Below, in pieces: positions 6,952-26,504 of a stretch of DNA of 26,504 nt (its first letter is position 1; every line of letters starts with the position of its first letter). Where the stretch lies: assembly GCA_029834535.1 (NCBI GenBank), contig JAQMWT010000235.1, positions 1 to 26,504 of the forward strand, given 5' to 3'. Made by a program: the position numbers and the translations under genes. The notes under the pieces were generated by a model. The model saw only the letters and a list, made by a program, of their open reading frames with translations, ran no database searches and was not told the origin of the DNA. Source of the DNA: Chrysophaeum taylorii (taxonomy: Eukaryota > Sar > Pelagophyceae > Pelagomonadales > Pelagomonadaceae).

Positions 6952-6972
6952 TCCTAACTACTAATCGACAGA

Positions 6973-6976
<4 letters not shown>

Positions 6977-7007
<31 letters not shown>

Positions 7008-7010
7008 TTG
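6977..7010. repeat. TCTG microsatellite
   Basis: A simple repeat of TGTC/TCTG units follows the proposed Helitron 5' end and grades into TGTTTGTTTG. Copies 2 and 3 have shorter TTTGTCTG versions at the equivalent place. Confidence 0.9.
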
Positions 7011-7055
7011 CCCCTCGATTTAGGGTAAGGATCAGGTAGGCCCGCGAGCCAGACA

Positions 7056-7560: not shown

Positions 7561-7644
7561 ACGACTCCACCCTACCACCCTACTCCACACGTGCTGCGCA
7601 ATACCGATAAGCCCCCTCCCGGCGTCTACACGCGCACTATAGGT

Positions 7645-7938
7645 TAACTTACTGGGACCAGGTGAACTTACTGGAACCAGGTGAACTTACTGGGGTTGGA
7701 GATTGGGACTAGGTGAACTTAGTGACCAGGTGGACTTACTGAGACCAAGTGTGAACTTACTGGGGCTTTTAGAGTAAACTCAAAGCTTAGCGGCGTGTGC
7801 GGATCAAAGCAGCTTAGATTGGCGGGGGTGAGAGCGACGAGTTCAAAGGAGAGGGGTGAGTGGATGTGAGCACGAGTGGGTTTGCGCCGAACTTACTGGG
7901 GTTAGAGATTGGGACTTTGTGAACTTACAAGTGCAGGC
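7645..7938 (+). repeat. Array of GTGAACTTACTGG repeats, copy 1
   Basis: Irregular repeats are built on ACCAGGTGAACTTACTGG and GGGGTTAGAGATTGGGACTAGGTGAAC. A shared non-repetitive piece (GAGTAAACTCAAAGCTTAGCGGCGTGTGCGGATCAAAG) is embedded at about 7771-7808. The array follows the helicase fragment directly, as in copies 2 and 3, so it is part of the element. Confidence 0.85.
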
Positions 7939-8270
7939 CAGTAAGTTCACCTAGTCCCAATCTCTAACCCCATTAAGTTCACCTGGTCCCAGTAAGTTCA
8001 CCTGGTCAGTAAGTTCACCTAGTCCAAATCTCTAACCCCAGTAAGTTCCGTGTAAACCCACTCGTGCTCACACCCACTCCTTCGAGCTCGTCGCTCTCGC
8101 CTCCGCCAATCTAAGGTGCTTTGATCCGCACACGCCGCTAACCTTTGAGTTTACTCTAAAACCCCCAGTAAGTTCACCTGGTCCCAGTAAGTTCACCTGG
8201 TCACTCAGTTCACCTAGTCCCAATCTCAAACCCCAGTAAGTTCACCTGGCCCAGTAAGCTCACCTACAGT
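7939..8270 (-). repeat. Array of GTGAACTTACTGG repeats, copy 2 (inverted)
   Basis: On plus it reads as CCAGTAAGTTCACCTGGTCCC repeats. It contains the inverse of the GAGTAAACTCAAAG...GATCAAAG segment at about 8119-8158. At the palindrome centre the string ACAAGTGCAGGCCAGTAAGTTCACC matches, in reverse, the end of the copy 3 array (CTTACTGGCCTGCACTTGT), so GGCCTGCACTTGTA may be close to the true 3' end of the element. Confidence 0.8.
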
Positions 8271-8299
8271 GCGCGTGTAGACGCCGGGAGGGGGCTTAT

Positions 8300-8853
8300 C
8301 GGTATTGCGCAGCACGTGTGGGGTAGGGTGGAGTCGTCGACTCAGAAGAGCATATCCTCGGGGTTGCCGATCGACAGAGAGCCACGTAGAGCTGGACGTG
8401 GCAGAAGACGGGCTTGGGCAAGAGGACGCCGACCTTGCGGGGCGTCTGCCTCTGGCTCTTGTTGATCGTTTGGCGTCGGTGGGGCTTGAGGGATACAGGT
8501 TGGAGGAGCCTCGGTGACACGACACTATCGATGATGTATCGGTACCGTTGCAGTGGCCGTGCGACGGGTCGAGGTTGCGAAGACTTTAAGCTCGAGATCA
8601 AAGTCAGCATGCCGTTGGTTGTCAGGGAGTTGAAAACTCGACTGTAAAGAGCGAGGCGTCGTCTTCCGACCCAACCTAGTCGGCCGAAAAGAACTCCGAC
8701 GCCTCGTCTCCGGGAAACAAAGGCCGCGGTCACGCGCTCGTTGTCAGCATCGACAACATCGTTTCGACGGGGCGTGAGAATGGCGCGCTGAAAGAGCCGC
8801 CGCGGGTCGTGGAAATAGTCTGCGAGGTCGCCGTAGACGGCTTGGAGGATCAA
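8300..8853 (-). pseudogene. Pif1-type helicase C-terminal fragment, copy 2
   Basis: The longest uninterrupted frame of the three copies (185 codons from 8853). It contains YGDLADYFHDPRR, AILTPRRNDVVDADNERVT, then TINKSQRQTPRKVGVLL and PVFCHVQLYVAL. The normal central part (VGAPVMLLRNLDP..LCNGTR in the family) is read in the wrong frame, so the two matching halves are joined by unrelated residues. The conserved SR after VAL is CR. A degraded helicase end; no nuclease or Rep domain lies nearby. Confidence 0.65.
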
Positions 8854-8942
8854 TGCCTGGCTCGCGGGCCTACCTGATCCTTACCCTAAATCGGGGGACA
8901 AACAGACAAACATGCTCCCCACACACACACCCCTCTTAGCAG

Positions 8943-8968: not shown

Positions 8969-9064
8969 TGTTACGACTGGAATGAGGCGTTAGACTAGCG
9001 ATAAGAGAAAGACGTATGGATACTGGATACGTGGTGCAGGGGTAAGTGTCATAGCTTCCTCACA
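8969..9064 (-). repeat. copia LTR (3' LTR of the element)
   Basis: Base-for-base identical to 14309-14404 by eye. In element orientation it starts TGTGAGGAAGC and ends GTCGTAACA. The flanking TGTTT at 8964-8968 is the target duplication. Confidence 0.92.
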
Positions 9065-9168
9065 CAGGAGCTGGAAAAGAACGAAAATGAAAAAAGGGGT
9101 AAGTGAGGTCCTCACACAGGTGCTGGAAAAAGAAAGAAAAGGAAAAAGGGGTAAGTGAGACGCTCACA
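9065..9168 (-). repeat. 52-bp tandem repeat adjoining the 3' LTR
   Basis: Two imperfect 52-base units (9065-9116 and 9117-9168) lie directly inside the 3' LTR. In element orientation each starts TGTGAG, runs through CTCACTTACCCC into a pyrimidine-rich tract, and ends TTCCAGCWCC. The start of each unit mimics the first bases of the LTR. A normal purine-rich primer tract (PPT) would be expected here in element orientation, but purines dominate on the opposite strand instead. Confidence 0.75.
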
Positions 9169-9241
9169 GAGGAGAAGCTTTGAGGAGGACGTCAATAGAG
9201 GCATTGTGGCAAGAAAGAAACAACAGAGATCAGGGCGAAGA

Positions 9242-9592
9242 TCACGAAGTGAGGTAAAGAGCACGAAGCCGGAGGAAGGAAGGAGCTTCCGTACTGCGGG
9301 TGAAAATGTCGCTAAGATTGTGAAGGCGGGGTATTTGTTTGAGATCAATGATGTGGTTGCGATGATATTCGGCGGTACTGTAAAAGCGAATGTCAATATG
9401 GCGGGTGCGCCGTGTGAGACATTGGAGACGGACTTGGGTGACGGTGGTGCTATTATCGACATACACTGGGACCGTGTGACGAGGGAGATCAAAGTCATCA
9501 AAAAGTTTGAGAAGCCAAGAGAGCTCAGCAGTAGCAGCGTAAAGAGCGAGCAATTCAGCTTCAAAAGAAGAGCGAGCAGGTAAGTACTGCGG
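9242..9592 (-). pseudogene. copia RNase H, C-terminal part
   Basis: The frame contains SSFEAELLALYAATAELSWL, VYVDNSTTVTQV and RTRHIDIRFYSTAEYHR, the typical copia RNase H sequence after the catalytic SSxEAE, DN and RxKHI-type motifs, and ends at a stop at 9242. The preceding half of RNase H (SGYSDSSWADD) lies in another frame, so a frameshift falls near 9590. Confidence 0.8.
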
Positions 9593-10153
9593 GAGCAGTA
9601 GGCTATCATAGAGCCAGCAAGGAGAAAACAAAAACCAGTTGTAGAGTGGCGGTCATCAGGGTCGTCGGCCCAGCTGGAGTCGGAATAACCAGAGAGACGA
9701 AGGGTAGAATCGCGACCAAGAATAAGGGCAAGATCCTGAGAACCGTTGAGATAACGCAGAGTGTGGGATAAAGCGTGCCAGTGGGGTTCACCAGGATTGT
9801 GGGAAAAACGCGCACACTGATTGACGGACCAAGTGATATCAGGGCGAGTCATGATGGAGATGAAGAGGACACAGCCAACAATACGGCGAAAAGGGATGCG
9901 TGCCATGAAAATGTGATCTGGAGAACCAGGAGTAGGACAATCAGCCGCAGAAAGATGAAGACAATCAGCCGCAGAAAGACGAAGACCTTTGGGAGCAGGA
10001 GTGAGTTCGGGTTTACTGTTGATGAAGCGATGTTCGGTAAGGATTTCACGGATAGCATGGGATTGGTCAAGAGTGAGGGTTCTCCGAGGGCGATCACGCG
10101 TAATGCGAAGACCAACGTAAGAGGTGAGATCAAGTTCATTGACGTCAGTGAAA
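9593..10153 (-). pseudogene. copia RT connection and RNase H, N-terminal part
   Basis: The frame contains FTDVNELDLTSYVGLRI (first copy of the duplicated segment), GCVLFISIMTRPDITWSVN, HWHALSHTLRYLNGS and SGYSDSSWADDPDDRHSTTG, the usual copia series from the RT thumb into RNase H. A 24-bp tandem repeat near 9936-9985 adds a second LSAADC. It is separated from RT by the 103-bp duplication and from the rest of RNase H by a frameshift. Confidence 0.8.
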
Positions 10154-10256
10154 GATAGCATGGGATTGGTCAAGAGTGAGGGTTCTCCGAGGGCGATCAC
10201 GCGTAATGCGAAGACCAACGTAAGAGGTGAGATCAAGTTCATTGACGTCAGTGAAA
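10051..10256. repeat. 103-bp tandem duplication inside RT
   Basis: The segment GATAGCATGGGATTGG...GACGTCAGTGAAA at 10051-10153 is repeated at 10154-10256 with no difference seen. Because 103 is not a multiple of three, the duplication shifts the reading frame and truncates RT. Identical copies suggest it is very recent, or an assembly artefact. Confidence 0.9.
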
Positions 10257-11655
10257 GCGCGGAAACGGAGGAAAAAGGCTTGGTAATGGCCAATGCAATG
10301 ACGAGGGTGCGCCACAAGAAGATCATCAACGACCAGAACGAGACGTAGAACAACGGTAGAATTGAGCACGAGCTTGTAATGGCAAGTGTCACCAGATCCG
10401 CGGACGAAGCCACACTCATTGAGAAGGAAGCGTTCCAAATAAAGCCACCAATTGCGACAAGCTTGTTTGCAACCATACCAAGAGCGACGGAGCTTGTAAA
10501 CGATTTTGGAACCATCGGTGGGTTGGCGAGGAGCATAGCCTTCGGGTGGCCAGACATAGATGTCTTCGTCAATGGGAGCTTGAATAAAAGCGGAGCTGAC
10601 ATCCAACTTGTGCAAATCCCAGTCATGAACAGCGACAAAGGTTAGAAAGAAACGGATCGTGACGATGTTGGCAACCGGTGAGTAGGTGTCATGATAATCA
10701 ATGCCGTGAACCTGGGTGTAACCGCGGACGACGAGGCGAGCCTTGTACGATTTGAAGCGGCCAGAGTCATACTTCTTGCGGAGGATCCACTTGAGGGTAC
10801 AAATGTTGCCAGAAAAAGTCGAAGGAAGGCGAACAACATCCCAGCAACCAAGCTGACCAAGGGAGCTATATTCTTTAGCGATGGCTTGCAACCAGCCAGG
10901 ACGCTCAGGATTGGTCGGAGCTAAAGCTTCACGTAAATGGGTGGAAGTAATAGTAGTTTCGTCAATGTCTGAATACTGAGAGATTTCTTCGGAAGCAGAG
11001 TAATAAACGTGTGCATGGGGATCAACAAGGGTGTTAGCTAAACAAAGGGGAAGGAAGACATAATGAACTAACAAACGAAAGCTAACAGAAGAGACATACA
11101 AAGAGTTACAGGAGGAAACAGAAGCGACAGAGGAAACAGAATCGACATTGTGACAGGATAAAACAGAAGCGCCCGTATAAAAGTTTGTTGGTTGTTGTAA
11201 CGCGCGTTGGTCGACTTTGCGCGGTCGGCCCCGTCTGGCGCGACGTAATGGTGCACGTTTCGTATTGTCCGGTAACAGTGTATTCAGTGACGGTTGAGTT
11301 GTTTCAGGGGTGATCAGTCCCGATAAGGCCGGCTCCGGAGCATCAAAAACAGAAGACAAGGGGGCCACGGCGGAAGATAAACGAGGGTCGTAATAAATTA
11401 AGTCAGGAAAACGAGAGTCCACTAGAGACGGAGGAAGGGGTTGAGAGGACAGTGACTTACGCAGAGCGAAATTTTCGTCAAAAACAACATCAATCGAGGT
11501 GTGGATGACAGGACCTGTGGGGCGTTGAAGCAATATGCGATATCCAGGGCCTGCAGAGGGGTACCCAATGAAGATACCGGTTATAGCTTTGGTAGGCCAT
11601 TTGTCGCCAGTGAGAATTGCAGCTGGACAGCCCCAAACACGAAGAAAATCAACAC
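10154..11655 (-). pseudogene. copia reverse transcriptase (with integrase C-terminal region)
   Basis: Starts in the integrase tail (DFLRVWGCPAA, the usual HLRVFGC-type motif) and runs through PERPGWLQAIAKEY, LKWILRKKYDSG, YKARLVVRGYTQ, GIDYHDTYSPVA, LHKLDVSSAFIQAPI, WYGCKQACRNWW to LVLVVDDLLVA (catalytic DD) and DLTSYVGLRI. These are the conserved copia RT blocks in order. The region between about 11150 and 11500 is Ser/Val-rich, as is common for the variable spacer before RT. The frame ends at the 103-bp duplication. Confidence 0.88.
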
Positions 11656-12237
11656 GGGGAGAGTTTCATGTAGCATTTCATATGGCGTCATATATCCAGG
11701 ATTAGAGGCATTTGGCATACGCTCAGAGATGAAGTCAGCCGTTTCCATGGCCCAACGCCAAAAATCAGGTGGACGGTGCGCATGTACCAAAAGAGTGCGA
11801 GTAATATCAGCAGTTGCGCGATGAGAGCGTTCCACAACACCGGAAAAAGCGTGAGCCTGTGAAGTTTTGGACTGAGCTGCAGGAGCGCGTTTGAGAGCGA
11901 TGTTGTTGCCCAGACAGAATGTTTCGAATTGGCCCATAAGAGAGCGGTCACGATCGGTGTAGATGAGGGCAATGCGATATCCGAATGGGCGAACCACGGT
12001 AGACAGAATAAGTTCGAGTTGACGAGCGTTCGTAAGGGCATCGTGTCGTGGAGCAAAGTAACGCGTGCGGCGGCGCGTATGATCATCGACAAACGTGAGG
12101 ATCGCGCGATCTTGATATATGAAGGATGGGACGCCTGCAAACATGAGATCGGCGTGGATAATAAGGTAGGGCGCAACGGCACGTGGACGAGACAAAGGCT
12201 CGGAGGAAGGAGACGAAGTGGAAGCGGAAGCATGGCT
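11656..12237 (-). pseudogene. copia integrase catalytic core
   Basis: The frame shows the DDE residues: HADLMFAG (first D), ALIYTDRDRSLMGQFETF (second D) and SGVVERSHRATADITRTLL (E). Then come DFWRWAMETADFISERMPN and TPYEMLHETLP, classic copia integrase sequence. The frame opens at 12237 and breaks near 11655, after which the protein continues in another frame. It would act on linear cDNA ends in the nucleus if expressed. Confidence 0.85.
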
Positions 12238-13250
12238 TTACGTTGGCCAACATGCGCAGCATGCATTTTACCGAGAGCACAAGCAGGACAAAAGAAAGAG
12301 ACGCGGAGCTCGGGAAAAGCGGTGCGCCAACAGCAAGAGAAGACAAACGCCGAAGATAGGGGACTATAATGACCAAGACGAGCATGCCAAAGGTCGAAGG
12401 TAAGTTGAGTGCGTTGAGACACAGCGGGAAACGCACAAGGGTCATGGACACGGGGGCAAGAAGAAAATGCCACAAAAGGTGAAACGAAGTCCGCGTAGGG
12501 CGCAGCGGTCGTATTGCCGATCCAACAGACGATCAAAAGAAGACCACAGCGACGAAGCAGGGGAATAACGTGATGCGTTTGGCGGTGACGTAAAATACGT
12601 TGCGGATGAGCAGGGCCAACGGCCTGAATGGTGTGGCAATCGTAACCAACTTGCTCAAGGGCATGATCCGAAAGAATCCGTTTGTCACCAAGGCCAGGAG
12701 AGATGAGGGTATGCGGGAACGCGACATGGATACCATGAGGGGCGGAAAGAGTGGGTGCAGGAGAAGGAAGACCACGATTGTCAAGAGGACCAATTGAAGG
12801 AAACGTTAAGTGGGCAGTGCCGGAACCGGAAACCAAGCCAGTGCCGAGTGCAGAAGTGATGGAGTGATGCTGAGTATTGTCAAGGTCAGTGAAACCAGAG
12901 GCAGAGTTAAAAAGATTGACGTTTGCGCCGGTATCATAGACAACGAGACGAAGGTTGGTGCTGTGAAGGTAGTCGCGCTCACAAGCGGTGAGCAGAGCGG
13001 TAAGGGCATTGGTGGAGGAAAGGACTTGGTGAATGGAGGGGGATATGGAGAGAAGATGGAAATTGAAAGACGGGTAGGTGGGTGCAGAAAGGGGTGGGTC
13101 AGGAAGGGTGACAGCGGTGGAAGGCGGGACAGAGGGTGTGGTGGAGGGTGGCAACGCAAGGAGCGGTGGAGAGGATTGAGATGGAGGCAAGAGTGGAATG
13201 GGGGCGGAAAGATAGTTTTGGTAGAAGGGTGGATGGGGCCTAGGTGGGTA
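12230..13250 (-). pseudogene. copia protease and integrase zinc-binding region
   Basis: This is in the same frame as gag, directly after its stop codon. LVVYDTGANVNLFN holds the retropepsin DTGA active site. LTFDLWHARLGHYSP with FFCPACALGKMHAA is the HHCC zinc finger of the GAG-pre-integrase domain. A Pro/Ser-rich linker lies at the start. The frame must change near 12230 to reach the integrase core. Confidence 0.85.
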
Positions 13251-14207
13251 TTAGAGATTTGACCGACGTGGGTATTGATATTGATGCCGAGGGCGGGCGG
13301 TGGCTTGTGAGAGCAAATAGCGCTGGCGCTTATGACAATCTTTCTGGTGATGGCCAGGAATACCACAAAAGTGACAAAGATCAGTATGGCGTGGGCGCTT
13401 GCGATGGAAACCACGTGAAGATGAAGGTCGGTTACGGAAAGATGATCGAAAAGTTGGGCGAGGGCTAGAACGTTGTTGAGAGCGCAAAGCATTGAAGCGA
13501 TGAAGGTATTTATCAGAAGGATGGTTGGGACGACCGTAAAAGTTGGAACGTTCACGATGACGGGGACTTTCACGGAACGTAGCATGGACATGCGCAGACT
13601 TGGTCTGAAGATAATCAAAAACTTTACTGTGGAGGCGATCAACGAAACCATCATATGTGCGCAGTTTAGGATCAAGTGCAATGAGATCCTTAGACAAGAG
13701 CGAGTCGGGGATTTTCGTCTGAAGCAATTGCAATGCAAGTGTGTCAGGGAAATCTTGATGATGCCGAGCAACTTGAACACCAGTGATGAACTTGTTAAGA
13801 AAAGACTCAAGTTCATCGATATTGTTGCACACCAAGGAATGCAGTGAAGCAATTGCAGACTGAGCGACACGATCTCCATGGCCCATGTAAACATAAGTAA
13901 TGCGCTTGTAAAGCCGCGTGAAGTTCATATCGCGGTTTTCGCGGATATCCGCACGATCAGTATCATGCATTGGTAGCGCCATGAAGAGTGCACTGTACCA
14001 GCGTTGCTGCTTGAGACCAAATTCTTCTTCAGAGCAGCCAGAGTCGGAAATGCTAGTCCAAGTGTCAGTGGTCAAGATAATGCGATTACCGGTGGAAATG
14101 ATCATGTTTTCCAGGCGCCGGGTCCATTGGTGAAAAAGATGTCGCTCACCACTGAAGGCATCGAGTTTTTGCGAAAGCTTGCTATCTTTAATTTCGATCG
14201 AGGACAT
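13251..14207 (-). CDS. copia Gag
   Basis: 318 codons from an ATG at 14207 (an earlier GTG at 14231 is in frame but less likely). The N-terminal part, with SQKLDAFSGERHLFHQWTRRLEN, resembles UBN2/retrotransposon Gag sequences. The C-terminal part is Arg-rich and carries a zinc knuckle, CHFCGIPGHHQKDC (C-X2-C-X4-H-X4-C), for RNA binding. A single TAA (13251-13253) separates it from the protease frame, which is otherwise continuous. Gag would form the virus-like particle in the cytoplasm. Confidence 0.85.
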   Translation of the reverse strand: MSSIEIKDSKLSQKLDAFSGERHLFHQWTRRLENMIISTGNRIILTTDTWTSISDSGCSEEEFGLKQQRWYSALFMALPMHDTDRADIRENRDMNFTRLYKRITYVYMGHGDRVAQSAIASLHSLVCNNIDELESFLNKFITGVQVARHHQDFPDTLALQLLQTKIPDSLLSKDLIALDPKLRTYDGFVDRLHSKVFDYLQTKSAHVHATFRESPRHRERSNFYGRPNHPSDKYLHRFNALRSQQRSSPRPTFRSSFRNRPSSSRGFHRKRPRHTDLCHFCGIPGHHQKDCHKRQRYLLSQATARPRHQYQYPRRSNL

Positions 14208-14290
14208 GATAAACGATAACGAACCGAACACGTAGCAATGAACTGAAGCCGATGAGGTGTCGCCACGAAGTCAAGCAGAGGCTCAACCGC

Positions 14291-14308
14291 GGTGAACACC
14301 TGGTACCA
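14291..14308 (-). promoter_or_regulatory. copia primer-binding site candidate
   Basis: Immediately next to the 5' LTR, in element orientation, is TGGTACCAGGTGTTCACC. It starts with TGG, as expected for pairing with the CCA end of a tRNA. The matching tRNA end would be GGTGAACACCTGGTACCA. I could not assign the tRNA; only the first five bases match the common initiator-Met PBS. Confidence 0.6.
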
Positions 14309-14404
14309 TGTTACGACTGGAATGAGGCGTTAGACTAGCGATAAGAGAAAGACGTATGGATACTGGATACGTGGTGCAGGGGTAAGTGTCATAGCTTCCT
14401 CACA
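14309..14404 (-). repeat. copia LTR (5' LTR of the element)
   Basis: Identical to 8969-9064. It is followed on plus by TGTTT (14405-14409), the second copy of the target duplication. Confidence 0.92.
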
Positions 14405-14544: not shown

Positions 14545-15160
14545 AGTCGGGGTCATCGCCGAGGCGTGGGGCAGGCGAAGAGAGGACGGGCCCCGCCCGT
14601 AGGTCGTACGCATGCTGCCGCCGGACGTATGTGCGACGAAGGGTGACGTCCTGCTGGGATCGGGCGGCCTGGGTGGGGTTCCCCGAGGCGGCGACATGGG
14701 TGAGGGCGGTGAGGGCACAGCGAGCCCGGCCTAATGCGTTGGCGATCCCCCACTCACGGTAGATGCGGCGAGTTTGGGCCGCCTTTGCCTCTGTGAAGTG
14801 GGCGCAACCGCCTGCCACCCAGGTTCGCAGCGATGCGCTCTGCGCATGTTTGGGCGAGAGCGTGGCACGCCGCGCTGGCCTCACCGAAGGCACCAAAGAC
14901 GAGGCCGGCGACGGTGCCGTAGCTACGTAACCGCTGTTCGACAGGGCCCAAGAAGCCAGGCGGTGGTGCTGTACCCGGCTGGGGGATGATGGCGTCGATG
15001 CCGCGGGCGTGAGCGAGGTATTCGGAGTGAACTTGCGCTGCGCGCCGATCGACAGGCGACGGGTGGGAGGGATGGAGGGCGTGGGCGGTGTACAACGAAC
15101 CCCAAGCGAGGGTTTTGATGTCGTAGAGTTGCTCCTTGTTGTTGAGCGTGGTGAGTTTGT
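14545..15160 (-). pseudogene. Unidentified coding fragment inside Helitron-like copy 3
   Basis: I do not recognise the family with confidence. Two frames seem to belong together. From about 15150 to 14825: NKEQLYDIKTLAWGSLYTAH, HSEYLAHARGIDAII, GPVEQRLRSYGTVAGLVFG, AFGEASAACHALAQT. Then, after a frameshift near 14820: HFTEAKAAQTRRIYREWGIA, ARCALTALTHVA. Composition is protein-like, unlike the noise frames elsewhere. I have a weak impression of similarity to a conserved segment downstream of RT in some algal and invertebrate retroelements. It could be captured host or retroelement sequence. Confidence 0.45.
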
Positions 15161-15204
15161 CCCCCGATTTAGGGTAAGTATCAGGTAGGCGCGCGAGGCA
15201 GGCA

Positions 15205-15765
15205 TTGATCCTCCAAGCCGTCTACGGCGACCTCGCAGACTATTTTCACGACCCGCGGCGGCTCTTTCGGCGCGCCATTCTCACGCCCCGTCGAAACGAT
15301 GTTGTCGATGCTGACAACGCGCGCATGACCACGGCCTTTTTTTCCCGGAGACGAGGCGTCGGAGTTCTTTTCTGCCGACTAGGTTGGGTCGGAAGACGAC
15401 GCCTCGCTCTCAAGAGTCGAGTTTTGAACTCCCTGACAACCAACGGCATGCTGACTTTGATCGCGAGCTTAAAGTCTTCGCAACCTCGACCCGTCGCTCG
15501 GCCACTGCAACGGTACCAGATACATGATCGATCGTGTCGTTGTCACCGAGGCTCCTCCAACCTGTATCCCTTAAGGCCCGCCGACGCCAAACGATCACCA
15601 AGAGCCAGGGCCTGACGCCCCGCGAGGTCGGCGTCCTCTTGGCGAAGCCCGTCTACTGCCACGTCCTGCTCTACGTGGCTCTCTGTCGATCGGCAACCCC
15701 GAGGATATCCTCTTCTGGGTCGACGACTCCACCCTACCCCACACGTGCTGCGCAATATCGATAAG
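15205..15765 (+). pseudogene. Pif1-type helicase C-terminal fragment, copy 3
   Basis: Nearly the same as copy 1: YGDLADYFHDPRR, AILTPRRNDVVDADNARMT, later ITKSQGLTPREVGVLL and LYVAL. In a second frame, LRNLDPSLGHCNGTRYMID followed by VVVTEA matches the Helitron/Pif1 LLRNLDP..LCNGTRL segment, which identifies the family well. At least two frameshifts interrupt it and the N-terminal motor motifs are absent. Confidence 0.7.
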
Positions 15766-15789
15766 ACCCCTCCCGGCGTCTACAGCACT

Positions 15790-16205
15790 ATAGGTTAACT
15801 TACTGGGACCAGGTGAACTTACAGGAACCAGGTGAACTTACTGGAACCAGGTGAACTTACTGGAACCAGGTGAACTTACTGGGGTTAGAGATTGGGACTA
15901 GGTGAACTTAGTGACCAGGTGAACTTACTGAGACCAAGTGTGAACTTACTGGGGCTTTTAGAGTAAACTCAAAGCTTAGCGGCGTGTGCGGATCAAAGCA
16001 GCTTAGATTGGCGGGGGTGAGAGCGACGAGCTCAAAGGAGAGTGGGTGTGGGTTTACGCCGAACTTACTGGGGTTAGAGATTGGGTTTACGCCGAATTTG
16101 CTGGGGTTAGAGATTGGGACAAGGTGAACTTACTGGGACCAGGTGAACTTACTGGGGTTGGAGATTGGGACTAGGTGAACTTACTGGCCTGCACTTGTAT
16201 TCGAT
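15790..16205 (+). repeat. Array of GTGAACTTACTGG repeats, copy 3
   Basis: Contains four consecutive CCAGGTGAACTTACWGGAA-type units, then GGGGTTAGAGATTGGGACTAGGTGAAC variants and the embedded GAGTAAACTCAAAGCTTAGCGGCGTGTGCGGATCAAAG piece. It is more expanded than in copies 1 and 2. Confidence 0.85.
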
Positions 16206-16346: not shown

Positions 16347-16489
16347 TGTGGCGGCAACTCCTGACCGCTAAGGCTTACCCCCCCTCTCTCGAGGCTTGAT
16401 ACCCGTTCAACGGGACACCTTTCCCGATCTTTTTAGTGACATCATATCTCTCTTTTGTGAGAAGCACTCTTAATGTATTCTTGTAGTTT
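16347..16489 (+). repeat. gypsy 5' LTR (start fixed, end uncertain)
   Basis: 16347-16489 aligns with the 3' LTR at 26362-26504 with a handful of substitutions and single-base indels (for example CTCGAGGCTTGATACCC versus CTCGGGGCCTGATACTC). The true end lies somewhere beyond 16489; I found no unambiguous CA-TGG junction with a primer-binding site. The small divergence between LTRs suggests an insertion older than the copia one. Confidence 0.85.
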
Positions 16490-17100: not shown

Positions 17101-20100
17101 ATGGAGATAAACGCAGACGTGCGTGAGGAAGAATCTCCTCCAGTTCTTCCCGCCGCCCCTGAGATAGGCCGCGAGGAAGGTGAATTAAGAGAGGCCGAGG
17201 CAGTCGACGTTGCTGACGTGCCCCCTGATGTGCCTCCGGATACTGCCATTTTTTCGCCGTTGAGTCCAACGACTCCGGATCGTGGCGAGCGTGTTACTAT
17301 TGAGCGCGGATCTGCAGCCCGAAGTCGACTTCGTGAAGACCTCGAGCGGAGACGTCGCGAAAATGAACGATTAGCTGAGCTTTTTGCTCGTGAAAGGGCT
17401 GAAGCGAAAGAGGAAGCGGCTCGACGAGAAGTTGATATGCTCAATGATGCATTACAGCAAGAGATCGAGACCTCGAAGACCCTACGCGAAGAGGTTGAAC
17501 GATTTCGTCGTGAACGAGATGAATTGTTAGCCGAACGTACGCGTCGGGAGAGTAGCCGCGAACGACCCGTGAGTCGACCCGAACCGGAAACGCCCGTGAG
17601 GCCGCCTGAACCGGAAAGGAACACTGAAACGGGGAATGAACCTCCGCCCCGAGTCGATACGGAGAATGAGGGTAGGGCGGACATTGAGAATGAAAGTACG
17701 AAAATTTTACGGGAATTATCGCGGGGAATATCGCAGACGGTTGCCAACGCCTTCGAAAAGGGCAACTTGAGCCGATCCCATCGACCCACTTCCAGTTTGA
17801 AGCCTGATAACTTCAAACTCGTCATCGACGGCCGAGACCAACGGCAATTTAATTTGGATTCGGCGGCGATGATGCATACTTTAGCAGATGACCATTACTC
17901 GGTCGAGAAATTACGTTACTTACTACCTGTGCATCTACGGGACACCGTTGCACCAATTTTTGAGGAACACTTGCAGAAATACGAGGAGCTCTGCGATGAG
18001 CTACCACACGGTCCGTCGTTTTACTTGAAATTAGATACTGACGATGAAGAGCATGGAGTCTCGGTTCGTCGTATCCGTCGTCTTAACAAGACGTATTGCG
18101 ACAAGATTTTGGATTATTTTAGATCGACTTGCCGACCTCCGCGCACGCAGCAGGAGCTGCTTGACAAGCTGCGGAAGGTCACCCAGGCTTCAGTTCCGAA
18201 GAAGTCTGGGGAGCGGCACGTCCAAACGTATTGTACCAGATTCCAATCTGAAGCCTTGGAGTTTTGTTCCGTGTCCAGCCGCACGATGGATGATGTCGAT
18301 ATCCTCGACCAGCTTATCAGTGGATTGACGTCCAAGGAGTTGAGGACCCGTGTGCGGACTATGAGGAGCGGACATCCTGATAGTTACGTGACTTTTAAGT
18401 CGATGGTAGCGCTTATTACGCGGCTCGAGAACGACTTACGAAAGTTGATGGAGGAGGAGAAGGACCAAGGCCCACCTAATCCGAAATCGAATAAACCGCC
18501 GCGAGGGCGGGGAGGTCGAGCTATGGCCTCCGATCAACAAGCCAAGCAAGATGCGGATAAACCGTCTGGGAATACGGATCCGCTGATTTTACGAGATCCT
18601 TTTTTGTGGGGCAAGAGAACGTGCCCGCACTGTGGGTTCTTCTGGACCACCCATGATGAAGATGAACACGGAAATCGCGTAGTTTGCAACCGCGATCCGG
18701 ATCGTTACTACTGTGCGATGTGGAAGCGAATTCGTAAGCAGAAGAAGCAGCCCATATCGCGGTCCGATTGGGCAAAGCGTGATGATGCATCTAATGCGAA
18801 CGCCACGCACGGATCGGAGCCTTCTAATGAAATTCAAACGGCCCTCACCGATCTTGGAACCACAATGGCGACCATGGTGAGCGAGGTCAGAAGCATCAAG
18901 GATACTACGTCGTTTTCTACACGACAGCGAGACGGACGATCACCTTCTAGACGATCGTCACGCCGACATCGAAGCCAGAGCCCTAATCGAAAAGCCCATA
19001 CTGCTCAAGACAGCCCGAGTCCTTGCCGTCACCGGAGCTCTAGTCGCAATTCGCGCCGGCGCCGACGTCATCGACATTACGATGACGAGTATGACGGAGG
19101 CAGATATCAGGATAGTTCGGGACATTCGAGCGCATCTTTCGCGTTCCAATCTTTATGCGACGCGCCGCCAATGTCGGGGGTTGTCTTTTACCCGACGGCG
19201 CGCCCTGCCCGAGTCTCCGATGATGTTGCCGATGTCGCTGTGACGAGCAGCCATCGTTTGCAACAGGAGCAACATACCACCAACGCTCGGATCGTTCGGT
19301 GGCCTTCTACATCGTATGTGGAAGCAATGTCAGATGCTACTTGGGATTCTCCGCACTACTGGGAAGACTCAGATTCGGAGACCGACGAACCCATGCCGCA
19401 GGTTCCAGTGTCCCCCCATTCGTCAATGTGCATGTCTTGCAGGGCAGTTCACGATGATGACGTTAGACCTTTTGAGTTGACGTCGGGGACGACGTCTTCT
19501 TTTCCTACGGGGCCCCCCGAGACCGTTTTAGCCGTTTTAGCCGATGTTTTAGCCGATACAGTTTTGGTCGCAGCAGAGCAGACCACAGCGGCGCCGATGG
19601 AGGAGAAGTTGACGGGAATGTCCGATTTGTTGGACGAGAAACGATTACCAGAAGAGATAAAGGAGGAGATATATGTGCCTCCGATTGAGAAGTGTCAGAA
19701 TTTGTTGTCAGCGAAACTGGGGAATGAAGAAGCAGCCGAAGCGGCGAGCGCCAATATAGATTCAGCGGCGAGATGTAGTACGCCAGATATAGCAGCGGTG
19801 ACGATGCAGATTCCGGGCGATGCGAAACCGGAGATACGATGTCATCACACTGCACTGTCGCCGAGCGATGGGGAAAAGATCGAGCAAGACCTCATCACCA
19901 TCGGTTGCCTGGACCCTGGTACCCTTACGTTTATAGTGGGTCATATTTATAGACGACGAGACGGGCCGAAGTTTGCAACGACTTTAGGCGTGGATGGAAT
20001 GGCTGATGTCTCTTATATTTGTCGTGGGATGGTTGAAAAACTGGAAAAGGATAGCATCATCCTTGACCGGGGCGATCTTCCAGTCGAGCGCACTTTGTAT

Positions 20101-22332
20101 GGGTCAGGATTGAACAAAACGACTATCCACCAATGGGTTGCATTGCGGATTGCGCTTGCGGACGACGTTGCCGTTCCAGTTGTTGCTATTGTGGCCGATA
20201 CTAATCATCTATTTTTGCTGGGAGCGCGCGATATTCGGGTGTTTGGAGCCATAGTGGATTACCCGCGGAATCGCATTGCGTTTCTACGCACACAAGTCGC
20301 TTACGGGCGCAAGAAGTTAAAGGTGCAGGATCGACGAGTAGATTCTCCGATTTTGACGTTCAGAACAACTTATGACGAGAGCAATCCCGTGGTAGTTCAG
20401 GTTTATGGACAACAGCACCATGCGATGCAACAAAGCCTGAGCACAGTTGAGAACCGAGTCTACGCTCGCTTGTGCAAGATTGAAGACCTCCAGCGTCCAC
20501 CGCCGAAACGAGCGGGAGCTTCGACGACTTGGGGAGTTCCTCCAGTTACGCCTTCTCAAAGTTCGAACAGCGATGCTTATGAAGTGAAAGCCTATGCTGC
20601 GCGCACGATGAAGGTCGAGCCTGGGCGCACCTACTGCGTGCCAGTCGCTCTTTCAGAGCCCGTGGAAACTGGGCAAGTTTTCGTTGCTACGTCTTCTGGG
20701 TACGAGCAACTCGGGGTAGTCGAAGGAATGTGTTCTTCTCCTGAGGATCATGATAAGTTCGCAGCTCGAGTGGCGATATCTTCTACCCAGGATGTGCCGA
20801 CCGTGATCACTCAAGGTGAAGTCCTTGCTTTGGGCGATATTGTTCGTTTTGATGACGAGCTGAATGCTGTGACGGTCGACGATTTAACGAAGGATGGTGA
20901 AGCCGAATCTAACAAGGCTAACCTATCATTCACTGTTTCGGTCGCAAGCCATCTTACTCAAGGCAATGCGGCTCCTGAACTGATGCTTTTGAGCTCAGTG
21001 CAGAAGGCGTCTCCTTCTGCCGATAAGAAGAAGAGTTCTCGTCAAGAATCGCTCGGTAACGACGATTTCGACCGACGAACTGACGAGGAGGAAAAGAAAT
21101 GCCGAGAAGTTACAGAATGCGAGATTCGCCGAAGGTTTGAAAAGGTCCACTGGGTGCCGGTCACGTATCGCAAGGTTGTGATGCTCTTCAGCGGCGCCGG
21201 AGGAAGTACTTTAGGACTGCAACGAGCGAACGAGTTGTGCGGGACGTCGTTTCGAGTCGTCCTTGCTCTTGACTCGTCAACAGCTGCCAACAAGGTTCAT
21301 CAGAAGAATTTTCCGAAGATACCTGTGGTCCAGCACACGCTCTGTGGACGATATGACTCAACCCTCCGGTTGATCAAGGCTTATTTGCCTGAAGCGGAAT
21401 GGTCATCGTCGATGTGTATAGCGTCTCCGCCCTGCGTTCATTCCGCACTCTGCAACTTGACATCCAGAGATGTTGGCAAGGGTGTTACGGCCACTAACTG
21501 GACGATGAAGTTGTGCAAGATGGCTGGCTTCATGATGTGGCTGATTGAACAGGAGGCGTCCATTATTTCGTATATAGCGCGCTTACACCCTTACGTGTAC
21601 GTCGTCAATTTTCATGATATCACACCTACTCTGATGAGCTCTCGCGTGCGATTGTTGGTTTCCAGTCACCCACTGCACTTGCAAGAGGCTCCGAAGACAT
21701 GTGTGAACATGCAACAAAAATTTGCTGCAGCTTTAGGTTATGCTCATGAACGCCACCTTCTCCAGCTGAATAATCTTGGCTCGTCCCGAGAAGCAACAGA
21801 TACGGCTTACACCGTTACGCGGGTTCCTCTTCGTTTGGGACCGCATCGCTCGGACACTCAGCCTTTGACTCTCAAGATGACGGCCGAGTTGCTCACGATG
21901 CCGGTGGATCATGATTGGGCTAGCTTGTCTAAGACAGATTCGTTCAAACATTTAGCATCTGTCGTCCCTCCAGATACTCTTGCGATTTTAGCAGTCGATC
22001 TGCACAACTCCGTGACCAGAGGTTTCCGCCAAAGTGGTGAAGTCCTGCCGACCGCGTTGAGCCCGACAGATCGATCCTTTGAGCAGTATTTACGAATCTC
22101 CGACACCACCTTTCGTCACGTAGAGATTCCGCTGTTAAATACGCGTACTCGTGTCGTTAAGTGGGTGTCAAAGGATGATCTCCAGGATCCCACTAAATGG
22201 GAACCGCCAGAAGTTCCTATGCTTCCGCTTCCAACTGATGCGCCGGGGACGGCTCATGCTTTTTCTGCTGCCCCCGACAATCAAAAGTGGACGTTCCGCC
22301 GGATCCTGAACCTGAACAGGAGCCGAAAGTAA
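17101..22332 (+). CDS. Gag - retropepsin-like - C5-cytosine DNA methyltransferase polyprotein
   Basis: 1743 codons from ATG 17101 to TAA 22330-22332, uninterrupted. Domains by residue: charged coiled coil 76-155; Pro/Glu-rich 165-200; Gag-like helical region 241-460; Cys-rich site C508-X2-C511, C529-X8-C538 with H520/H523 nearby; RS/RH-rich basic stretch about 608-665; retropepsin-like 935-1067, with DGM in place of DTG at D965 and the family's LLGARDI..FGAIVDY end; beta-barrel-like linker 1160-1265 of the kind found between protease and RT in gypsy pol; charged linker 1290-1345; methyltransferase 1351-1637. RT follows in the -1 frame. Gag should package the RNA; the methyltransferase would transfer methyl from S-adenosylmethionine to cytosine C5. 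Targets are unknown. Confidence 0.88.
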   Translation: MEINADVREEESPPVLPAAPEIGREEGELREAEAVDVADVPPDVPPDTAIFSPLSPTTPDRGERVTIERGSAARSRLREDLERRRRENERLAELFARERAEAKEEAARREVDMLNDALQQEIETSKTLREEVERFRRERDELLAERTRRESSRERPVSRPEPETPVRPPEPERNTETGNEPPPRVDTENEGRADIENESTKILRELSRGISQTVANAFEKGNLSRSHRPTSSLKPDNFKLVIDGRDQRQFNLDSAAMMHTLADDHYSVEKLRYLLPVHLRDTVAPIFEEHLQKYEELCDELPHGPSFYLKLDTDDEEHGVSVRRIRRLNKTYCDKILDYFRSTCRPPRTQQELLDKLRKVTQASVPKKSGERHVQTYCTRFQSEALEFCSVSSRTMDDVDILDQLISGLTSKELRTRVRTMRSGHPDSYVTFKSMVALITRLENDLRKLMEEEKDQGPPNPKSNKPPRGRGGRAMASDQQAKQDADKPSGNTDPLILRDPFLWGKRTCPHCGFFWTTHDEDEHGNRVVCNRDPDRYYCAMWKRIRKQKKQPISRSDWAKRDDASNANATHGSEPSNEIQTALTDLGTTMATMVSEVRSIKDTTSFSTRQRDGRSPSRRSSRRHRSQSPNRKAHTAQDSPSPCRHRSSSRNSRRRRRHRHYDDEYDGGRYQDSSGHSSASFAFQSLCDAPPMSGVVFYPTARPARVSDDVADVAVTSSHRLQQEQHTTNARIVRWPSTSYVEAMSDATWDSPHYWEDSDSETDEPMPQVPVSPHSSMCMSCRAVHDDDVRPFELTSGTTSSFPTGPPETVLAVLADVLADTVLVAAEQTTAAPMEEKLTGMSDLLDEKRLPEEIKEEIYVPPIEKCQNLLSAKLGNEEAAEAASANIDSAARCSTPDIAAVTMQIPGDAKPEIRCHHTALSPSDGEKIEQDLITIGCLDPGTLTFIVGHIYRRRDGPKFATTLGVDGMADVSYICRGMVEKLEKDSIILDRGDLPVERTLYGSGLNKTTIHQWVALRIALADDVAVPVVAIVADTNHLFLLGARDIRVFGAIVDYPRNRIAFLRTQVAYGRKKLKVQDRRVDSPILTFRTTYDESNPVVVQVYGQQHHAMQQSLSTVENRVYARLCKIEDLQRPPPKRAGASTTWGVPPVTPSQSSNSDAYEVKAYAARTMKVEPGRTYCVPVALSEPVETGQVFVATSSGYEQLGVVEGMCSSPEDHDKFAARVAISSTQDVPTVITQGEVLALGDIVRFDDELNAVTVDDLTKDGEAESNKANLSFTVSVASHLTQGNAAPELMLLSSVQKASPSADKKKSSRQESLGNDDFDRRTDEEEKKCREVTECEIRRRFEKVHWVPVTYRKVVMLFSGAGGSTLGLQRANELCGTSFRVVLALDSSTAANKVHQKNFPKIPVVQHTLCGRYDSTLRLIKAYLPEAEWSSSMCIASPPCVHSALCNLTSRDVGKGVTATNWTMKLCKMAGFMMWLIEQEASIISYIARLHPYVYVVNFHDITPTLMSSRVRLLVSSHPLHLQEAPKTCVNMQQKFAAALGYAHERHLLQLNNLGSSREATDTAYTVTRVPLRLGPHRSDTQPLTLKMTAELLTMPVDHDWASLSKTDSFKHLASVVPPDTLAILAVDLHNSVTRGFRQSGEVLPTALSPTDRSFEQYLRISDTTFRHVEIPLLNTRTRVVKWVSKDDLQDPTKWEPPEVPMLPLPTDAPGTAHAFSAAPDNQKWTFRRILNLNRSRK
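19900..20305 (+). other. Retropepsin-like domain with altered active site (within the polyprotein)
   Basis: GVDGMADVSYI (residues 963-973) aligns with the usual (I/V)DTGAxxSFI: the Asp, Ala and Ser/Ile positions fit, but DTG reads D965-G966-M967. The C-terminal LLGARDIRVFGAIVDYPRN (residues 1039-1057) is a good match to the LLG-D-L end of gypsy proteases. Either the protease is inactive and another activity processes the polyprotein, or the family uses an unusual loop. Confidence 0.6.
21151..22011 (+). other. C5-cytosine DNA methyltransferase domain (within the polyprotein)
   Basis: Motif I is VVMLFSGAGGSTLGL (1359-1373), the SAM-binding FSGxGG. Motif II-like: ALDSSTAANKVHQKNFP. Motif IV is ASPPCVHS, with catalytic Cys1445 (nt 21433-21435). 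Motif VI appears as WLIEQE, keeping Glu1483 while ENV becomes EQE. Motif VIII is SSRVRLLVS (Arg1515, Arg1517), matching QxRxR. A short target-recognition-like region follows. A motif IX-like TAELLTMPVDHDW (1594-1606) and motif X LASVVPPDTLAILAVDL (1618-1634) complete the fold. About 290 residues, the size of a minimal catalytic domain without BAH, CXXC, PWWP or ATPase parts. Confidence 0.88.
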
Positions 22333-23550
22333 GGAGCGAGCCGAATGTGCGCGTCAAAGGTGAAAAGATCAATAAGAGCCACCCTGAGGTGAGGTTCAAA
22401 TACGAAGAAAAGTTCGATGTGCCATGGAAGGATGCGCCGCGCGATGCGGACGGTGTACCGTTACCGCAGATTCCCGAGCACGTCAAGGACAATGATGCGA
22501 TGAAAGTCGTAATTCCGACGAAGGAAGAAGTTGAGAAGGTTGTTCGAGATCTAGGAATTCCCGACAACCCGCATCTGGATGATGATGCGAAGATGATGTT
22601 GAGCCATTGCGTGCAATACGCGTGGGCTTTCTTTGATCCGATTATGAGACCCGTGGACTCGCCACCGGTTTCTCTACGCTTTAAAGACGCAAACCCACGA
22701 CCGATCAAGATGACGCCTTATAGGTTGACGCCAGCAAAGCTCGAGTGTCTCAGAAAGCAGATCACTGAGTGGTGTCGCGATGGAGTCATCCGACCGGCGA
22801 ACTCTCCGTGGGGATTTCCTGTACTGATGCTGCCTAAGAAGGGAGCCGAGGCCGGGACGTCGAATGCTTTTCGTGCTGCCGTTGACTTGCGTCAGCTCAA
22901 TGATCAGCTGGTCAATGACAGTTGGCCGAATATTCGTCAAGATGATGCTTTGGCTTTTCTTGCCATGCGCCGTTGGCGGACGTGCATTGATATTCGATGG
23001 GGTTATCATAACTTACGTTTGGACGCCGCTGCTCAGGACGCTGTTACGATGGTTAGTCCACTTGGAGCCCATAGTTTCTTGCGCTTGCCTCTAGGAGTAA
23101 AAACAGCAGGAGCTCTCTTTTGTAAGCAGATGGCTAGCGATTTGTCCACATGGATGTATAAGGACTTGGTCGCGTTTGTCGACGATATTATGATGGGATC
23201 GGATGAACTCCATCGACATTTACAAGTTTTGATTGAAGTGTTGTGCCATTTAGCACAGCGAGGATATAGTGGACGAACTTCGAAGTTCCACCTCCTCAAG
23301 GATGAAATCGAGTTTTTGGGACATATTTCGACTCCGGAAGGCTTGAAGCCGAATCCCAAGACGTTAGAAGCGTTGCAGCAGATGCCGATTCCCGGTACGT
23401 TGCCCAATACGTCCCCGAAGACCCAGATTCGATCTTTCATTGGTATGAGCAACTATTGCCGCCGATATGTGAAGAATTATTCGAAGATTGTGGAGCCGCT
23501 TAGGCGATTGTGTCTTGAAGGCGTTAAGTTTGAGTGGACGCCTGAGTGCC
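22239..23550 (+). CDS. gypsy reverse transcriptase (in -1 frame to Gag-MTase)
   Basis: The frame opens at 22239 after a TGA and overlaps the end of the previous frame by 94 bases. No good ATG sits at its start (the first usable start-like codon is GTG 22287), so expression by -1 frameshifting as part of one polyprotein is likely. RT blocks in order: RPIKMTPYRLTPAKLECLRK, GVIRPANSPWGFPVLMLPKK, RAAVDLRQLNDQLV, TCIDIRWGYHNLRLD (first catalytic Asp, nt 22989-22991), LRLPLGVKTAGALFCKQM, LVAFVDDIMMGSDE (catalytic DD at 23181-23186) and EIEFLGHISTPEGLKPNPKT. A frameshift near 23549 ends the frame before RNase H. Confidence 0.88.
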
Positions 23551-24905
23551 AAAGGCATGGGACACGATCATCGAAGCTTTGGTGGATTCTCGTGGAGTTT
23601 ATCATCCTGACTACGATCTTCCTTTTCAGATCCGCTCGGATGCTTCCAAGGATGGTCTGGGTGCGTATCTTTTTCAGCTCGTGGAAATCAAGGACGAAAC
23701 CGGCAAGGTGACACGAGAGGAACGAGTAATTGAGTATTGGAGCCGAGCTGTGCCGAAAGAGATGCGGAACTATGAGCCTCGCCGGCTAGAGCTCCTGGCA
23801 GTTATTCTTTCTCTTGAGCATTTCCGCTCTTATATTGAAGGTCACAAGACGATCCTTGAAACAGATCATCGCAACTTGACGTTTTTACGAAAGGCGAAGC
23901 ACTCGTCTGGGCAGTTGGCTCGATGGGCGATGCGGCTCGCCAATTTTGATCCTGAATTGGGTTACAAGCCAGGGAAGTCGCCGGGAATGAGCATCCCTGA
24001 CTGTCTCTCTCGCAATCCTATAGATCATGTCATCGAGACGGACGAGTTTGGTGAACCCTTGAACCACGCGTATCTAGTGTGCCAAGAACTCCCTCGTTCT
24101 GTTGATGATGAAGGAGTACCTTTACCTGGGTGCCATGTCATTCTGTCGTTTGTTACGACTGAGTTGCCTGTGGAGGAAGAGGAGGAAGACCTCGATGATC
24201 CGATGCAATTGGTCACGTCTCATGCTACGAGACAACGTCAGAAGCAACGTCTGCAGACCCAGCCTAGTATTTTCCGTGATGCCGATGATTACCAAGAGTA
24301 CATCGACAAGATCTCGGATAATTTGACTTTGGAAGAGATAGCCAAAGAGCAGATCACTGATGCTACTTGCGAGGACATTCGTTATCGCATGGCTCAGGGC
24401 CATTCTCTTCGTCGGTACGGAGCCAATTATCGCTATCAAGTGGTGAAAGGAGTTCTCTACCGTGCCGCACCCGACTTGCACCCGATGATAGTCGCACCCC
24501 GAACTTTACGGACGCGCATCATCCGATTGTACCAGGACACACCTCTCAATGGTGGTCATATGGGTCGTCAAAGTACAGTGCAGTCGATACTTGAACGTTT
24601 TTGGTGGCCTCATATGTCTAATGAGGTGGGTGCTTACATGGCTGGTTGCATAGTGTGCAAGAATGCTCGTACGCCTGAACCAAAGAGAGGAGGTCTGCTT
24701 CAGCAACCGGTGTATGATGGTGATTGTGTCGTACTTTGTATGGATTTGTTTGGACCTTTGCCCAGTGCTGGTCCCGAGACATATCTCATCGTCTTTTTTG
24801 ATCCATTTTTTCATTTCTTGATTCTTGACGTACTACACCACAAGACTGCTGAGTCAACCCTCGAGTCTTTTGTCGCGAATATATTACTCAAAGGCTATCT
24901 ACCTC
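23551..24905 (+). pseudogene. gypsy RNase H and integrase N-terminal half
   Basis: RNase H: FQIRSDASKDGLGAYLFQL (Asp at 23639-23641), RRLELLAVILSLEHFRSYI, ILETDHRNLTFLRKAK, ARWAMRLANFDPELGYKPGK and IPDCLSRNP, a normal gypsy series. Then a linker, and the integrase zinc-binding region GGHMGRQSTVQSILERFWWP with GCIVCKNAR; the first His of the HHCC finger appears to be Gln. The core begins VVLCMDLFGPLP (first catalytic Asp, 24743-24745). The frame is cut at 24905 by the 283-bp insertion. Confidence 0.85.
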
Positions 24906-25188
24906 TAACGAACTAACTAACTTCAGACCTCACCCGAGCATGGGAGCCAGGCCGGACCGACAGGAGCCAGTCCGGAATCACGGGCCTGTAGACGAGGAGC
25001 GCCGAAAGGTCGGTCGGCGGAGAGTGACCATCAAGCTTGTCGCCATGCGACGAGGAGACCGCGATGTGACTGACAACCAACTCGTCGATAACCTTCCGTC
25101 TTCGCCCCCCGGCCATACCCCGTCCCACTGCGAACGTTCCGGCTGCCAACCGGCCCGCCCGGGAGGCGAATAGGTGCCAACCTACCTC
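24906..25188 (+). mobile_element. 283-bp non-coding insertion in the integrase core
   Basis: Flanked by CTACCTC (24899-24905 and 25182-25188), consistent with a 7-bp target duplication; removing one copy plus the insert makes the integrase frame continuous. It starts TAACGAACTAACTAACTTC, a short TAAC-type repeat that would be a 3' tail in the reverse orientation, and ends GGTGCCAAC. A related partial copy is at 76-177. It looks like a SINE-like or other small non-autonomous element; I did not find clear A and B boxes. If the element itself ends CTAC, as at the window start, the target duplication would be shorter. Confidence 0.75.
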
Positions 25189-26327
25189 AGAGGATTCGTA
25201 CGGACAATGGGAAAGAGTTCGTCAACAAGTTGATGGAAGAGTTTGGTCATCTTTTCAATGTTCGGTATAGTACCACGATTCCGCATCATGCTCAGGCTAA
25301 TCCAGCGGAAAGGGTCAACCGCTTTATCTAGGCTTTCCTCCGTGCGTGCCTTCAAAACTGCAAGATCACGGAATGGCCCGAATTCGCGGAGTACATTGCT
25401 TTCTGTTATAATCGTAAATTTATTCCGGGGACTCAGATCTCACCTTTCATGCTTCGTCTTAACCGGCAGCCTTTATTGCCAACCGATTACACGATCATGG
25501 ATCTTGATGTCCGCCGCCTGCCGAAAACTCGCTCCGATGTTGTGGCAGAGACTCGCGAAAGGCTGAAGTTCTATACCGCTACGGTGAACGAAGCTCGTGA
25601 GAAGGCTCTTCGTAAACAACGTCTCGCCTATAATGCGGACCATGTTGATGTGGAGTATGAAGAAGGTTCACATGTTCTGCTCTACATCCCTTTTCTTCAG
25701 AACAAGCTTCGACCGGAATGGCGCGGTCCATTCGTTATTTTGGAACGCTTGTCCCCGGTCACTTACAGGATTGAGTCTCTTGATTATCCTCCCGAACGCC
25801 GTTGTGTTCATGTTAGTCAGATTACCCCTGTGATGGTTTCTCCAGTGGTCGATCGAGCTGTGCCCAAGCCCAAGGAGACCTTTCGGGATGATTACAAGCA
25901 TGGTAAGTTCGTTATCTTTCGGATTCCGGATAATAAACGGTCCGATTGGCGAAAGAAGATTTATGTCGCTGAAGTTTATGAACCCTATGATTTTGTGAAT
26001 GATCGAGTCGCTCTGCATTTCTATGCTGATCTCGGTCCCCATGACAAGGTTTCTTATTACAAGCCTACTTCACATCTCTCTACTCGCAAGCTTAAGCCGG
26101 AATACAAGGACGTGGACGGTCGCAGTTTCACCGACAAGACCAAGGTCAACAACAGTACCACTCCTTGTGTCACCGACTTCGCCCCGCATGAGATCGATGT
26201 GTTGATTCCTAAGTTCACTTTACGTGGTGGACGCGTTCCTGAACCTGTCGTTGAACGTGCCTACAAGAAGATTCGTTCTCGAGATGCTCATTCAGCCAAG
26301 GCTCGTGCTTCTCGCCGGACTCGCTGA
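25189..26327 (+). pseudogene. gypsy integrase C-terminal half with GPY/F module and extra C-terminal domain
   Basis: Begins with RIRTDNGKEFVNKL (second catalytic Asp, 25203-25205) and reaches the Glu in ANPAERVNRF (25308-25310), 35 positions further. A TAG at 25329-25331 interrupts the frame just after. It then continues through EWPEFAEYIAFCYNRK and EEGSHVLLYIPFLQNKLRPE to WRGPFVILERLSPVTYRIE, the GPY/F module, and VHVSQITPV. About 160 further residues follow, with HGKFVIFRIPDNKRSDWRK, IYVAEVYEPYDF and KPTSHLSTRKLKPEY, ending basic at TGA 26325-26327. This extension is not a recognisable classical chromodomain. Confidence 0.82.
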
Positions 26328-26361: not shown

Positions 26362-26504
26362 TGTGGCGGCAACTCCTGACCGCTAAGGCTTACCCCCCCT
26401 CTCTCGGGGCCTGATACTCGTTCAACGGGACACCTTTTCCGATTCTTTTAGTGACATCATACCTCTCTTTTTGTGAGAAGCATTCTTGCTGTATTCTTGT
26501 AGTT
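26362..26504 (+). repeat. gypsy 3' LTR (cut by the window end)
   Basis: Starts TGTGGCGGCAACTCCTGACCGC and follows the 5' LTR at 16347 for the whole visible length, with a few substitutions and single-base indels. Confidence 0.88.

Follow-up and report, generated by a model that had tools for sequence, protein, structure and literature searches.

Does the long terminal repeat (LTR) retrotransposon that runs to the end of this contig encode a C5-cytosine DNA methyltransferase (MTase) inside its polyprotein and, if so, what might such an enzyme do for the element? The window analysed here is the whole of contig C235 (26,504 nt), one of the 697 contigs of a 70.8-Mb genome assembly. The first-pass annotation had read a Gypsy-type element with a C5-MTase-like domain ahead of the reverse transcriptase (RT), and this reading holds in both the Pfam order and the profile matches. 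Downstream of the domain, RVT_1, RT_RNaseH, Integrase_H2C2 and Integrase_p58_C follow one another as in Ty3/Gypsy elements. We have high confidence that the locus is an MTase-bearing Gypsy element; the features are collected in Table 1.

Table 1. Features of the MTase-bearing element in the window
Feature	Position	Strand	Basis or remark
Left LTR, part matched by the right one	16347..16489	+	Starts TGTGG; blastn, 132/143 identical to 26362-26504
ORF1, 1743 aa, one open frame: Gag-like, protease-like, linker, MTase	17101..22332	+	
Putative Gag region	17701..18780	+	Position and C-x2-C ... C string at 18622-18687
Block missing as one in the derivative: protease-like, linker and MTase	19655..22206	+	L167, L173; junction pattern
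Putative retropepsin-like region	19987..20265	+	GVDGMADVSYI 19987-20019, FLLGARDIRVFGAIVDYP 20212-20265; by eye
C5-MTase-like domain, residues about 1351-1637	21151..22011	+	PF00145, PHROGs and NCBIfam on first part; hhalign
Motif I string	21172-21219	+	
Motif II string	21256-21315	+	
SPPC, expected motif IV with catalytic cysteine	21424..21435	+	Aligned to PCQ of C5 enzymes
Motif VI-like string	21538-21567	+	Label by eye
Motif VIII-like string	21637-21666	+	Label by eye
Motif IX/X-like string	21871-21978	+	Label by eye
RT ORF, in a frame other than ORF1	22287..23711	+	PF00078 E 1.2e-13
RNase H and start of integrase	23546..24916	+	PF17917 E 1.6e-27, PF17919, PF17921 E 1.1e-13
276-nt insertion in integrase	24906..25181	+	CTACCTC on both sides; absent from L167, L173
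C-terminal part of integrase	25449..26327	+	PF22938 E 4.8e-8
Right LTR	26362..26504	+	Cut by contig end, which is the window end

The element spans position 16347 to the contig end. Its LTRs had been called near-identical, which overstates their likeness: the identity is 92% over the 143 nt visible of the direct repeat (blastn), the right copy being truncated and no target-site duplication legible. The continuous frame claimed from Gag through protease to MTase exists as an open frame, but no profile recognises Gag or protease in it. Neither region gave a meaningful Pfam match at E<=5, and the protease piece found no match in a PDB search up to E<=10. Two strings, D-G-M and LLGxRDI...VDYP, are the basis of the protease reading. 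Retropepsins carry D-T/S-G, which D-G-M replaces at 19987-20019; the string is kept as VDGMADVS at L040, a locus of the second subfamily (A2) described below. The window copy is broken, with MTase, RT and RNase H in three different frames and the integrase interrupted by the 276-nt insertion. Stretches similar to this insert occur at L005, L010, L164 and L168, and the repeat is perhaps a short non-autonomous element.

Against the full ORF1 protein, PF00145 matched residues 1358-1414 at E 9e-4 and 19.2 bits, below its cut-off of 22 bits, while the isolated 367-aa piece reached E 5.9e-6 and 26.4 bits, above it. PHROGs profiles annotated as DNA methyltransferase matched at E 6.4e-8 and 1.6e-7, and the NCBIfam dcm profile matched at E 0.0015, well short of its own cut-off. 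In Pfam, PHROGs and NCBIfam alike, the best and nearly the sole match was to a DNA or C5 methyltransferase, and no other family in these three collections was significant on the domain. All significant profile matches were confined to motifs I-II, so that the profile check proposed for residues 1351-1637 succeeded for the isolated piece but drew its significance from that part of the domain. All 16 aligned copies matched PF00145 at E<=1 (best 2.5e-6). When a profile of these 16 copies was aligned with 22 C5 enzymes, the hhalign score was 33.0 with motif I and PPC in register, compared with a maximum of 24.2 in 200 column shuffles and 15.9 for the reversed profile; the hhalign probability was only 17-20%. 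The score of the C-terminal part by itself against C5 enzymes, 14.2, could be reached by shuffling (max 20.2, n=100), and motifs VI and VIII-X are therefore by-eye readings. Of the five motifs named at the outset (I, IV, VI, VIII and X), motif I is thus significant and motif IV (SPPC) is placed by register, but VI, VIII and X lack statistical support. Among the aligned copies the SPPC cysteine, GAGG and RVR are each present in 16/16 and PPC in 15/16; at the positions expected to hold ENV and GN, the window copy reads IEQ and AS.

A PDB profile search up to E 10 returned four matches. The best two were DNMT2 chains (E 0.4 and 0.44), the sole C5 enzymes found, and these matches were insignificant and covered the motif I-II part only; no Dnmt3 chain was among the four, and the domain is very divergent. 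Single-sequence structure prediction of the MTase reached a pLDDT of 32.3 and was of no use for the fold. No relative was found in the protein collection among 4202 and 2220 candidates (E<=0.001) or, with a profile, among 6475 candidates (E<=10), in searches that see only proteins of similar length with short words in common. Of viral contigs, 24 stretches fitted the search pattern and none encodes a relative.

The existence of other genomic copies with the same order had been set beforehand as the test of the reading, and such copies are numerous. A genome search with the MTase gave 111 matching places (111 of 1079 candidates scored), 78-100% identical, of which 85 have no internal stop. The copies fall into two subfamilies whose MTases are about 20% apart: A1, to which the window copy belongs, and A2. 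At all 30 MTase-selected A1 loci (L009-L038, window included) the order is upstream piece, MTase, RT, and it is the same at four A2 loci (L039-L042), where the MTase is 78-80% identical. At L039 the upstream piece, the MTase, the RT and the RNase H start share a single 1233-aa frame. When loci were instead selected by their RT, 17 of 19 held MTase sequence. These comprised 10 of the 12 A1 loci, window included (partial sequence in L163, L164, L168 and L172), and all seven A2-type places, picked since the MTase genome search had listed none there, several of which are damaged or incomplete (L174 rearranged, L176 partial). Matches lie at nearly equal coordinates on the contig pairs C10/C297 and C25/C521, which suggests uncollapsed haplotypes, and the copy counts may be slightly inflated.

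The MTase domain is under purifying selection and has been retained in many copies. Between A1 and A2, dN/dS was 0.066-0.085 for the MTase (4 pairs), 0.021-0.047 for the RT (3 pairs) and 0.161-0.183 for the protease-like piece (4 pairs), ratios that are rough because dS, at 1.5-1.9, is near saturation. Within subfamilies the MTase ratio ranged from 0.03 to 0.41.

A form of the element without the MTase is also present. At L167 and L173 an identical block, comprising the protease-like stretch, the linker and the MTase, is gone at a 7-nt repeat, and Gag is joined to the pre-RT linker. The 25-nt junction pattern occurs at 23 places in the genome (15 exact, 8 with one or two mismatches), of which L167 and L173 were read in sequence and the others were identified by the pattern; the pattern of the intact left boundary occurs at 70 places, and the backward control gave zero matches in both the junction and the boundary searches. 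Among the 23 places, those on C25 and C521 look like twins of one place. The form lacking the protease-like stretch and the MTase has thus spread, presumably helped in trans, indicating that the MTase is not needed in cis. An origin from spliced RNA was rejected, since the ends of the missing block are not GT...AG and instead have CCAGAAG in common; template switching or microhomology deletion fits better.

If the copies were methylated at CG over long periods, a deamination trace might be expected. Between copies at 30 A1 loci, no C-to-T excess was found at CpG: transition differences were 0.0221 for CG, 0.0209 for CHG and 0.0226 for CHH, and among the 16 NCN contexts CCT was highest (0.036) and TCA lowest (0.013). 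Nor is CpG depleted in the window element (observed/expected 1.19). The lack of both trace and depletion speaks against the copies having been methylated at CG over the long term, but it could also reflect a different target context, repair that is efficient, or marks limited to the replication cycle.

The genome holds 57 PF00145 matches (123 of 474 candidates scored): one DNMT2 gene (L001; PDB 1g55, E 7.7e-39), one DNMT5-like gene (L002) and 55 places belonging to a second retroelement family, B. The L002 product matched PDB 7r76, listed as 'DNA repair protein Rad8', at E 3e-143; we take this entry to be Cryptococcus Dnmt5. DNMT5 is a maintenance enzyme elsewhere. This inventory is to be read with the fact that A copies score too low to enter the genome PF00145 list, so that a similarly divergent host DNMT could be missed. 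Light-harvesting PF00504 matches number 84, and L053 is closest to fucoxanthin-type chains, from which we conclude that the host is a chlorophyll a/c-type alga. In view of these matches Perkinsus or a dinoflagellate, candidates suggested by the size of the genome, were dropped as hosts; a pelagophyte such as Aureococcus, which has a large light-harvesting family and a DNMT5, is our tentative guess.

A genome search for family B gave 155 matches (150 of 635 candidates scored); its MTase is absent from the window. The 55 PF00145 places were assigned to it by coincidence of place between two match lists, and six of them (L003-L008) were read. A Gag-like frame is followed by a second frame, in which a DGG protease-like string precedes a C5-MTase bearing the strings TLPCQHLS and IVENV. 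Behind the MTase, an integrase is matched weakly at L044 (rve, E 0.0041, below the cut-off) and not at L045. We call the family copia-like because integrase follows the MTase with no RT between, the stretches read being without RT. Its profile scored 30.5 against C5 enzymes, exceeding all 60 shuffles (max 27.6), and dN/dS of its MTase was 0.08 to 0.29 (28 pairs of 8 loci). A close relationship between the MTases of B and A is unsupported, the hhalign alignment being off-register (E 0.11, probability 0.5). The downstream end of the family B locus L008 has the start of a family A Gag inside, suggesting that A inserted near or into B.

Domain order, copy number, the frame common to MTase and RT in a relative, the retained motif strings and purifying selection are the observations from which we argue. 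Our preferred explanation, which we think probable, is that a Ty3/Gypsy-type LTR family (A1 and A2) acquired a highly divergent C5-cytosine MTase in its polyprotein, immediately upstream of RT. The enzyme would be made as part of the Gag-Pol product and packed together with RT and integrase; once reverse transcription is complete it would methylate cytosines of the freshly made cDNA or of the insertion site, and the mark could then be copied by the host DNMT5. The element would probably benefit from insertions that are quieter and less toxic, or from having its cDNA protected. As judged from sequence, the MTase is probably active on DNA, whereas the element's own cDNA or insertion site as the main target is proposed tentatively, being somewhat doubtful.

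The absent deamination trace, the weak profile scores and the altered motif VI and X strings would also suit a C5-MTase fold that no longer methylates and persists in Pol as a structural, SAM-binding or nucleic acid-binding spacer. We regard such a loss of function as unlikely, given that the whole domain is strongly constrained and that the SPPC cysteine, GAGG and RVR are invariant in the aligned copies. It is somewhat less probable still that the enzyme is in effect an RNA methyltransferase, like DNMT2, marking element RNA or the tRNA primer and not DNA: the two DNMT2 chains in the PDB search point that way, but their match is too weak and short to separate classes, and no DNMT2-specific feature was seen in the domain. 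Since significance is limited to motifs I-II, a different SAM-binding or Rossmann-type domain has to be considered as well; it is very improbable, because SPPC lies in register with the PCQ of C5 enzymes and Pfam, PHROGs and NCBIfam offered no other significant family. A one-off chimera or misassembly, to which the broken state of the window copy and its position at a contig end might point, is rejected by the copy counts and has negligible probability, the equal order recurring at many places, on different contigs and in two subfamilies.

Beyond the preferred reading of a Gypsy-borne MTase that acts on DNA, the two families together allow a wider proposal, which we put forward as quite unlikely. 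With DNMT5 but neither DNMT1 nor DNMT3 recognised in the host, retroelements might supply the de novo MTase. Two unrelated LTR families would have separately acquired a C5-MTase in a similar polyprotein slot, behind the Gag/protease-like part and ahead of the Pol enzymes that follow; the marks that they seed would be copied by the host enzyme, and MTase-less derivatives would live off full elements.

Precedents in dinoflagellates and charophytes had been named correctly. DNMT-bearing retrotransposons occur in Symbiodinium (LINE and DIRS) and Klebsormidium (Gypsy) (PMC5890265). The MTase of KnitGypsy-Dnmt3 from Klebsormidium nitens is reported to have Ka/Ks < 0.2 (de Mendoza et al., 2018, PMC5890265). 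That element resembles family A in being a Gypsy-type LTR element whose Pol ORF includes a C5-MTase, in its many copies and in the purifying selection on the MTase; here the MTase is in the frame of the RT at L039, while the frames differ in the window copy. It differs in having a Dnmt3-class MTase, the present domain being too divergent for class assignment, and repeats described there as DIRS-like, whereas ours look like plain LTRs. SymbioLINE-Dnmt and SymbioDIRS-Dnmt3 of Symbiodinium (PMC5890265) likewise represent many retroelement C5-MTases in one algal genome and in more than one element type, but they are LINE and DIRS elements instead of Gypsy, one with a Dnmt3-class MTase. For family B, the nearest precedent is provided by the Copia- and DIRS-borne DNMT3s (PMC12344493), which are also C5-MTases in LTR elements; they are described there as DNMT3 members from streptophytes and dinoflagellates, whereas we assign family B to no class. 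DAM/DCM-encoding Ty3/Gypsy and DIRS elements, stramenopiles included, are noted in PMC6338049, in a passage that gives no element, species or order; these methylase-bearing Gypsy elements are alike in kind. Orchid Ty3/Gypsy elements with an m6A RNA demethylase domain (PMC9289625) show a similar gain of a nucleic acid modification domain by Gypsy, but it is an RNA demethylase and not a C5-MTase. PMC9998398 treats host DNMT classes.

No report of family A was found in searches of the open-access literature, directed in part at Perkinsus, subscription papers being mostly outside this scope. Elements of this kind are known; the novelty, as far as we have seen, lies in the lineage, in its orphan MTase, in the occurrence of a second LTR family with an MTase in the same genome, and in the derivative without one. 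The few known cases of transposons bearing the enzyme class that is used to silence them are thus joined by an algal genome in which two LTR families do so. In addition, this genome sets copies with the MTase beside nearly identical ones that lack it, together with a host DNMT5. Such a natural contrast makes the transposon's gain from the MTase directly testable with long-read methylation data.

The rest of the window is rich in repeats. A separate copia-type element lies on the minus strand at 8969-14404 (RVT_2 E 4.4e-36, gag_pre-integrs E 1.6e-5); the two copies of the 96-nt direct repeat at its ends are 100% identical, so that the element is apparently young. Positions 1-7000 form a GC-rich block in which stretches are repeated up to three times at 1.6-2.2 kb spacing, and the five ORFs tested within it had no Pfam match. 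Long direct and inverted repeats at 6997-8912 and 15155-16199 flank the copia element and include a minisatellite-like GTGAACTTACTGG unit.
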